Below, one piece after another: positions 18,028 through 18,801 of a stretch of 42,142 nt of DNA. Within the stretch, counting starts at the first letter, position 1, and each line of letters opens with the position of its first letter. The stretch is from Candidatus Aenigmatarchaeota archaeon. GTDB taxonomy: Archaea > Aenigmatarchaeota > Aenigmatarchaeia > GW2011-AR5 > JAGGXF01. The notes beneath the pieces were generated by a model. It did no database searches, was not told the DNA's origin, and was given only the letters and a program-made list of their open reading frames with translations. The position numbers and the translations under genes are program-made. Location of the stretch: contig JAGGXF010000039.1 of assembly GCA_021163205.1 (NCBI GenBank), forward strand, positions 1-42,142, written 5' to 3'.

Positions 18028-18227
18028 TGGGCCCGACGGGATTCGAATTCGCGGACCGCAACGCAACAATACAGTGCAGTCTCCCGCGACACCCGGCTCT
18101 CTTTCCAGCTCTTCAATCAACTAAGTTTAAACTTAGATTGCTGTTAAAAGGCCGGTGCTCTATTTGCCCGGGTGTTTCTCTTGGGAGTTTTTCTAAAGAT
18201 AATCCCACCAGGCTGAGCTACGGGCCC
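18028..18227 (-). tRNA. tRNA-Lys(TTT) with three introns (D-loop, anticodon loop, T-arm)
   Basis: 200-base gene, mature about 74 bases. Acceptor GGGCCCG pairs with CGGGCCC, discriminator A; D-stem GCTC/GAGC; anticodon stem CCGGC/GCCGG with loop CTTTTAA; T-stem GCGGG/CCCGT with TTCGAAT. Introns: D-loop about 18162-18206 (44-45 bases, exact edge ambiguous after GG of the loop), anticodon 18099-18144 (46 bases, position 37/38), T-arm 18048-18082 (35 bases, position 53/54). The 37/38 intron has a CTTT/AAAG helix with bulges TAA and AGA. The T-arm intron has a CGCG/CGCG 4-bp helix, bulges GGA and AAT cut after the second base, and a 7-bp inner helix. Located between tRNA-Asp and rpoH. Confidence 0.92.
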
Positions 18228-18257: not shown

Positions 18258-18425
18258 CGCCCTAGCCGGGATTTTCACAAACCTTTCTTTGGCATTAAGC
18301 TTCTTTGGGCGTGTCTCTTTTTTCTTGGACATCCAAAGACCTTTCTTTCCAAAGAAAGGGATTTGGTTTGAACCCGGGTCGCAGCCTCGACAGGGCTACA
18401 TGCTAGTCCACTACACCACCAGGGC
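18258..18425 (-). tRNA. tRNA-Asp(GTC) with a 95-base T-loop intron
   Basis: 168-base gene, mature 73 bases. Acceptor GCCCTGG/CTAGGGC (one G-T), discriminator G73 as expected for Asp; anticodon stem TAGCC/GGCTG with loop CTGTCGA; T-stem CCGGG/CCCGG. The T-loop is split: TTCAAA ends at 18367 and the final T with the 3' half begins at 18271, so the intron (18272-18366) is at position 59/60. The bulge-helix-bulge is complete: exon helix CCGGG/CCCGG, central helix TTCA/TGAA, bulges AAC and AAT, inner helix CAAA/TTTG. The intron contains further hairpins (e.g. CCTTTCTTT with AAAGAAAGG). There is no anticodon intron. A TATA-like box lies near 18464-18476. Confidence 0.92.

Positions 18426-18653: not shown

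Positions 18654-18801
<148 letters not shown>

Follow-up and report, generated by a model that had tools for sequence, protein, structure and literature searches.

The window analysed here (42,142 nt) corresponds to contig C37 in a bin of 42 contigs and 811 kb (genome G000). It carries the one tRNA-Asp(GUC) gene found in this Aenigmatarchaeota archaeon, and an intron interrupts the gene in its T-loop, between positions 59 and 60. Very probably the intron is spliced by the endonuclease EndA and is built on a lineage-specific element, whose most likely role, put forward with low confidence, is that of a folding switch. BHB (bulge-helix-bulge) introns at 59/60 are not new as a kind, as introns at this and many other non-canonical positions have been described in archaea (PMC4090602); thus the sequence-only reading was borne out in assigning a T-loop BHB intron, but not in its implied surprise at the position. 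The novelty lies inside the intron, which represents an intron family based on a three-strand motif that is conserved and is found beside start and stop codons as well. The element offers a testable case for the origin and spread of archaeal introns, and ties tRNA splicing to mRNA leaders within one lineage. All of the genomes compared were metagenome bins.

Table 1. Features of the tRNA-Asp/tRNA-Lys locus (positions in the window)
Feature	Position	Strand	Details
tRNA-Asp(GTC) gene	18425-18258	minus	168-nt pre-tRNA
tRNA-Asp 5' exon	18367..18425	minus	59 nt, through T-loop position 59; ends ...CCGGGTTCAAA
tRNA-Asp intron	18272..18366	minus	95 nt, between T-loop positions 59 and 60
tRNA-Asp 3' exon	18258..18271	minus	TCCCGG CTAGGGC G (T60, T-stem, acceptor strand, discriminator G)
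BHB, exon side	18369..18377	minus	T-stem CCGGG 18377-18373; central-helix 5' strand TTCA 18372-18369
BHB 5' bulge	18368-18366	minus	AAC; predicted cut after 18367
BHB, intron side	18274..18292	minus	CCAAAGAAAGG 18292-18282; TTTG 18281-18278; central helix TGAA 18277-18274
BHB 3' bulge	18273-18271	minus	AAT; predicted cut after 18272
Element copy	18319..18366	minus	E 5.8e-11 with covariance model R1; no other copy found in bin
Element hairpin	18333..18366	minus	P1 CCAAA:TTTGG; 2x2 UC/UC internal loop; P2 CCTTTCTTT:AAAGAAAGG
Degenerate third strand	18321..18328	minus	CCAAGAAA
Better, incomplete third-strand match	18309-18300	minus	CCCAAAGAAG
tRNA-Lys(TTT)	18028..18227	minus	directly downstream of tRNA-Asp; three predicted introns; spliced form tRNA-Lys(ttt) by ARAGORN
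tRNA-Lys D-loop intron	about 18206-18162	minus	45 nt, predicted
tRNA-Lys anticodon-loop intron	about 18144-18099	minus	46 nt, predicted
tRNA-Lys T-stem/loop-junction intron	18082-18048	minus	35 nt, predicted

A T-loop intron in the sole tRNA-Asp gene of the bin

The sequence-only reading had described an apparently broken tRNA-Asp(GTC) gene with one 95-nt intron in the T-loop and a distant 3' half. All of these elements were found in place on the minus strand (Table 1), the T-loop around the intron site being TTCAAA^T. Removal of the intron restored a canonical tRNA, which ARAGORN accepted as tRNA-Asp(gtc), in support of reading the apparent break as an intron. The unspliced gene gave neither an ARAGORN call nor an Rfam match, and ARAGORN over the whole window as given reported zero tRNAs. 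The 5' exon stretch had a 100% match in the bin at its own position only, and the bin contained one full-length source of the mature tRNA-Asp sequence. A search of the bin (811 kb, about 91% complete) for another intact gene, which the sequence-only reading had named as evidence against it, yielded no second tRNA-Asp.

The pairs suggested for the BHB (CCGGG:CCCGG, TTCA:TGAA and CAAA:TTTG, with bulges AAC and AAT) were exactly those of the MFE fold of the 168-nt pre-tRNA, with an MFE of -61.2 kcal/mol and z = -4.33 against dinucleotide shuffles. A forced-pair check agreed, and beyond CAAA:TTTG the MFE fold adds a polypyrimidine:polypurine helix. In T-loop introns of relatives, exon purine 57 covaried with the intron base opposite it in the central BHB helix (A-T 10/10 and G-C 7/8, in a sample that holds related copies, so that the counts are not all independent). 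With a BHB at both junctions and the position at 59/60, membership of the BHB introns is supported by the sequence on each testable feature. If instead the gene were a pseudogene, with its T-arm broken by an unrepaired insertion, ARAGORN and Rfam would be expected to miss it, as they did; however, it is the sole tRNA-Asp in the bin, its exons are perfect and compensatory change across genera keeps the BHB pairing, so we consider a pseudogene highly improbable. Taken together, the spliced product, the MFE fold, the covariation, the presence of an EndA gene and the lack of another tRNA-Asp in the bin argue for a T-loop BHB intron.

The RpoB encoded near tRNA-Asp was 88% identical to that of a Candidatus Aenigmatarchaeota bin, and the tRNA-Asp/tRNA-Lys pair was conserved across the phylum. 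The T-loop intron of tRNA-Asp recurs next to tRNA-Lys in relatives, indicating that it did not arise by chance. Introns at this site containing the element were found in the window genome and in G001, G002, G014 and G044. Short tRNA-Asp T-loop introns of unrelated sequence occurred without the element in G015, G022 and G026 (another short, unrelated T-loop intron was present in G011), indicating that the element is dispensable for splicing there, and tRNA-Asp of G003, G004, G006, G013 and G019 had an anticodon-loop intron instead. Elsewhere in the window, the 5S rRNA (18654-18800, minus strand) had one arm approximately 26 nt longer than the Rfam model, representing either an intron or an extended helix.

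The splicing endonuclease

A single EndA gene was present in the bin (L099:1474-2079, minus strand; 201 aa), as was one main copy in most relatives checked, and its nearest entries in the Protein Data Bank were Nanoarchaeum equitans NEQ205 and Methanocaldococcus jannaschii EndA. EndA would excise the 95-nt intron after the intron and T-arm have folded into the BHB. Judged from the pairing and the enzyme gene, such cleavage very probably takes place; in archaea generally, the exons are ligated after EndA cleavage. The EndA of this bin has a loop, LKKGPKS, at a site where the Nanoarchaeum enzyme has one and the Methanocaldococcus enzyme none. An L-K/R-K/R-GPK insertion before the catalytic His was common to the aligned Aenigmatarchaeota EndA sequences, present in NEQ205 and absent from M. 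jannaschii EndA. Lineage-specific EndA loops of this kind have been linked to a broad substrate range (PMC12397907) and go with scattered introns (PMC12397907; PMC4033280). A broad-specificity build of the EndA in this bin is thus supported by its sequence. The residue aligned with the catalytic Lys of M. jannaschii EndA (K156) was Ala, once Thr, in 26/26 aligned Aenigmatarchaeota EndA sequences and was followed by Arg, Lys or (once) Glu, giving the motif NIRA[R/K]ML compared with SVRKKLL in M. jannaschii (L099 and relatives L340-L368).

A conserved element within the intron

Searches with the tRNA-Asp intron gave many matches outside tRNA-Asp and in this way revealed the element. The intron's 'own hairpins', as the sequence-only reading had called them, are present, but they had not been recognised as a copy of an element spread through the phylum. 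The element (~50 nt) consists of a P1 stem (4-5 bp), a 2x2 pyrimidine internal loop (YC/YC), a polypyrimidine:polypurine P2 stem (CC + U(m)CU(n) on one side, A(n)GA(m) + GG on the other), P1' and, beyond a linker, a purine third strand T. In the window its start coincides exactly with the 5' splice site. Of the pair cells in an alignment of 31 copies, 96.9% were standard pairs, and eight pairs of P1 and P2 were changed on both sides, exceeding all 500 shuffles.

The strict P2 pattern was detected in 22/59 relative genomes, with 0 for the reversed control. The covariance model detected the element in 41/59 relatives, and in 58/156 Aenigmatarchaeota genomes at E <= 1e-4. The number of matches ranged from 1 in the window genome to 40 in G044 and 49 in G003, a few of those in the latter two being one site read on both strands. 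Among control genomes of other archaea, 16/17 were without a match. One Altiarchaeota genome gave two weak matches, one of them after a tRNA gene and similar-looking, and the element may therefore reach beyond Aenigmatarchaeota, as judged from sequence similarity. At this Altiarchaeota locus (L376), a similar hairpin and a matching purine strand directly follow the tRNA gene.

The element is undescribed in Rfam and in the papers searched, and fits no known family tested. Rfam gave no match to it in the window or in five element loci (E <= 1), and no published description of these introns or of the element was found in a search largely without subscription journals and preprints. Like the non-canonical tRNA introns of Thermoproteales, Nanoarchaeota and ARMAN, the present introns have BHB junctions, lie in the T-loop, can share one tRNA with other introns, recur in similar form in different tRNAs and go with a broad-specificity EndA; unlike them, they belong to an Aenigmatarchaeota host and have a conserved body of hairpin and third strand that also occurs outside introns. 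Group I introns have been reported in rRNA of Aenigmarchaeota (PMC6125680) and share with the present introns a location in structural RNA genes of one phylum, but the introns described here are far too short and have BHB junctions; a group I intron was also rejected because the five element loci searched against Rfam gave no hit at E <= 1. Reading the hairpin as a recombinase att site was rejected as well, since the loop length varies and P1 covaries.

A third strand in parallel register

Downstream of the hairpin, a base-for-base parallel complement of P2 was found in 109/123 copies with an asymmetric P2, in a set collected by a covariance model that included the third-strand consensus and may thus enrich for the presence of the strand, not for its register. 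The reverse complement was found in 11/123, of which 10 were also parallel via short-run overlap. When the downstream segments were shuffled among the copies (n=2000), the mean was 49 and the maximum 61, a value to be taken as an indicator and not as a probability because the copies are related. The register was kept where the core had changed, as in TTTTCTCTT with AAAAGAGAA (L186) and CCCTTTCTCTTT with GGGAAAGAGAAA (L205), and in the L19e leaders of the close relatives G003 and G019 all three strands differed together. That the third strand instead forms Watson-Crick pairs with the pyrimidine strand was rejected, as asymmetric copies follow the parallel and not the antiparallel register; protein half-sites were also rejected, since mirror symmetry would not be a symmetry of protein-DNA recognition. 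A parallel (mirror) register is expected of a triplex, and is not predicted by alternative hairpins or protein half-sites. Thus, for the family as a whole, the third strand covaries in triplex register, and on this covariation contact of the third strand in vivo is likely. The window copy is degenerate, with no perfect third strand at the usual place (Table 1). If the parallel register means a triplex, the hundreds of covarying copies would be a large natural set of triple-strand nucleic acid.

Known triple-helix RNA elements include ENE/MALAT1 and the SAM-II and preQ1-II riboswitches. The present element resembles these in having a strand parallel to a polypurine:polypyrimidine stem, and its leader copies adjoin start codons, but the third strand in the introns is purine rather than pyrimidine and there is no Rfam match. 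A triplex on the intron strand would be of the purine motif (A.A-U, G.G-C), for which we know of little precedent in RNA. On the complementary strand, the sense strand in leaders, the triples would be U.A-U and C+.G-C. U.A-U is the better known triplex type; the strand able to form it is the transcribed one in leader copies alone. Counted in the model strand, P1 mismatches amounted to 9 G.T and 20 A.C of about 850 (leaders, 1 G.T and 6 A.C; RNA genes, 8 G.T and 16 A.C, several of these 16 being one misplaced pair in G001), too few for assignment of the functional strand from G:U versus A:C. The right flank of many copies (for example L165, L166 and L262) forms a short hairpin with the third strand in its loop, often followed by ATATTA.

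Location of the element copies

The parsed copies numbered 187. About 107 were at RNA-gene loci (in introns or just 3' of tRNAs), a heuristic class that includes some unassigned sites, 61 were in reverse orientation just before start codons and 19 just after stop codons. Counting only ORFs of 80 codons or more, the left end of the element abutted a start or stop codon 73 times and the right end five times, and the tRNA copies were all forward. Intron copies occupied the 5' end of introns in tRNA, SRP RNA and 5S rRNA; in G003, the element interrupts the 5S rRNA gene, with BHB-like ends, and the SRP RNA gene (L179:1457-1647 and L163:1466-1823). The genes with a leader copy include those for L19e, S3, S12, Rpb4, RFC and an aminotransferase. 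A TATA-like sequence was often present 20-30 nt further out, and, judged by this spacing, the element would form most of the leader 5' UTR.

A possible folding switch

In T-loop introns, the first intron strand has two possible partners, its local one in the element hairpin and the intron's 3' end in the BHB, and the two intron ends change in step (CAAATC/GATTTG, CCAATC/GATTGG, CCAACC/GGTTGG and CTAACC/GGTTA). In many introns the two folds were a few kcal/mol apart, the BHB being better in 16/28, by energies that ignore the third strand and proteins. We propose tentatively, and with some doubt, that the element is a folding switch at the splice site: the hairpin would mask the 5' splice region until displaced by the 3' end of the intron, and the displacement would complete the BHB helix that EndA needs. 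For the window pre-tRNA, the BHB fold (-61.2 kcal/mol) was better than the hairpin fold (-50.6 kcal/mol) by 10.6 kcal/mol. Given this clear preference for the BHB form, together with the degenerate third strand, the window copy is, on these models, probably a spliceable intron with a constitutive, partly decayed element.

The leader copies raise a wider possibility, which we regard as rather unlikely, namely that one triple-strand switch module gates both tRNA splicing and the initiation of translation of ribosomal and other genes across Aenigmatarchaeota. Such a module would mask the boundary that it abuts, either a 5' splice site (tRNA, SRP RNA and 5S rRNA) or the start codon of an mRNA, and an alternative pairing would open it, with introns and leaders using opposite strands.

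Origin and spread of the element

The hairpin could also be the inherited, functionless body of a mobile intron, the intron itself being an ordinary Thermoproteales-type BHB intron spread by transposition. The 59/60 position is known (PMC4090602), as is the transposition of introns between tRNAs in Thermoproteales (PMC4033280), and near-identical T-loop introns were present in different tRNA genes of G001, G002 and G044, a feature not found in the window genome with its one copy. However, the element also occurs outside introns, beside the start or stop codons of genes and downstream of tRNA genes, and the loops and P1 differ while the pairing and the third-strand register are kept, which is not neutral decay. 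Transposition of a functionless body thus seems a somewhat improbable explanation.

A further alternative is that the element is mobile DNA of the MITE, REP or introner kind, which would be recognised in the form of a folded single strand or a triplex; insertions into RNA genes would survive only where they are spliceable, and the others would survive between genes. Consistent with this, the site upstream of L19e was filled in some genomes (element reversed relative to the gene in G003, G019 and G017, which represent two genera, and in G018 forward, following the preceding stop codon), whereas in other genera the stop and start codons almost abut; this pattern may reflect either insertion or loss. 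G:U pairs are also rare in P1, as if the constraint were on DNA, and at one tRNA locus (L219) the intron has element copies at both ends, forward at the 5' end and inverted at the 3' end. The present element resembles introners, MITEs and REP in its many copies, some of them intronic, its palindromic hairpin and its presence or absence at one site between genera. On the other hand, the copies showed neither a target-site duplication nor a fixed target, and the junctions vary; copies within one genome are not near-identical, as P1 and the loops differ, and covariation is seen within each copy; the orientation is fixed by context; and no match was found in viral contigs. We therefore consider a mobile DNA element unlikely.

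Several loci showed further repeats or motifs. At L213 (minus strand), a 21-nt sequence, ATCACGCTGACCACACCCCAC, was present on both sides of an element copy in a host RNA with no Rfam match. At L249:2330-2480, the 3' end of a tRNA is followed by an element copy and then by a repeat of the junction GGCAGGCGCATTACAA, resembling a duplicated tRNA end. In G044 (L103 and L104/L187), a second recurrent motif, CCCTTTACTCGGCGTAAAG ... CAACGGAAACTGGCTTGGTGAA, was found several times in anticodon-loop introns of different tRNAs.
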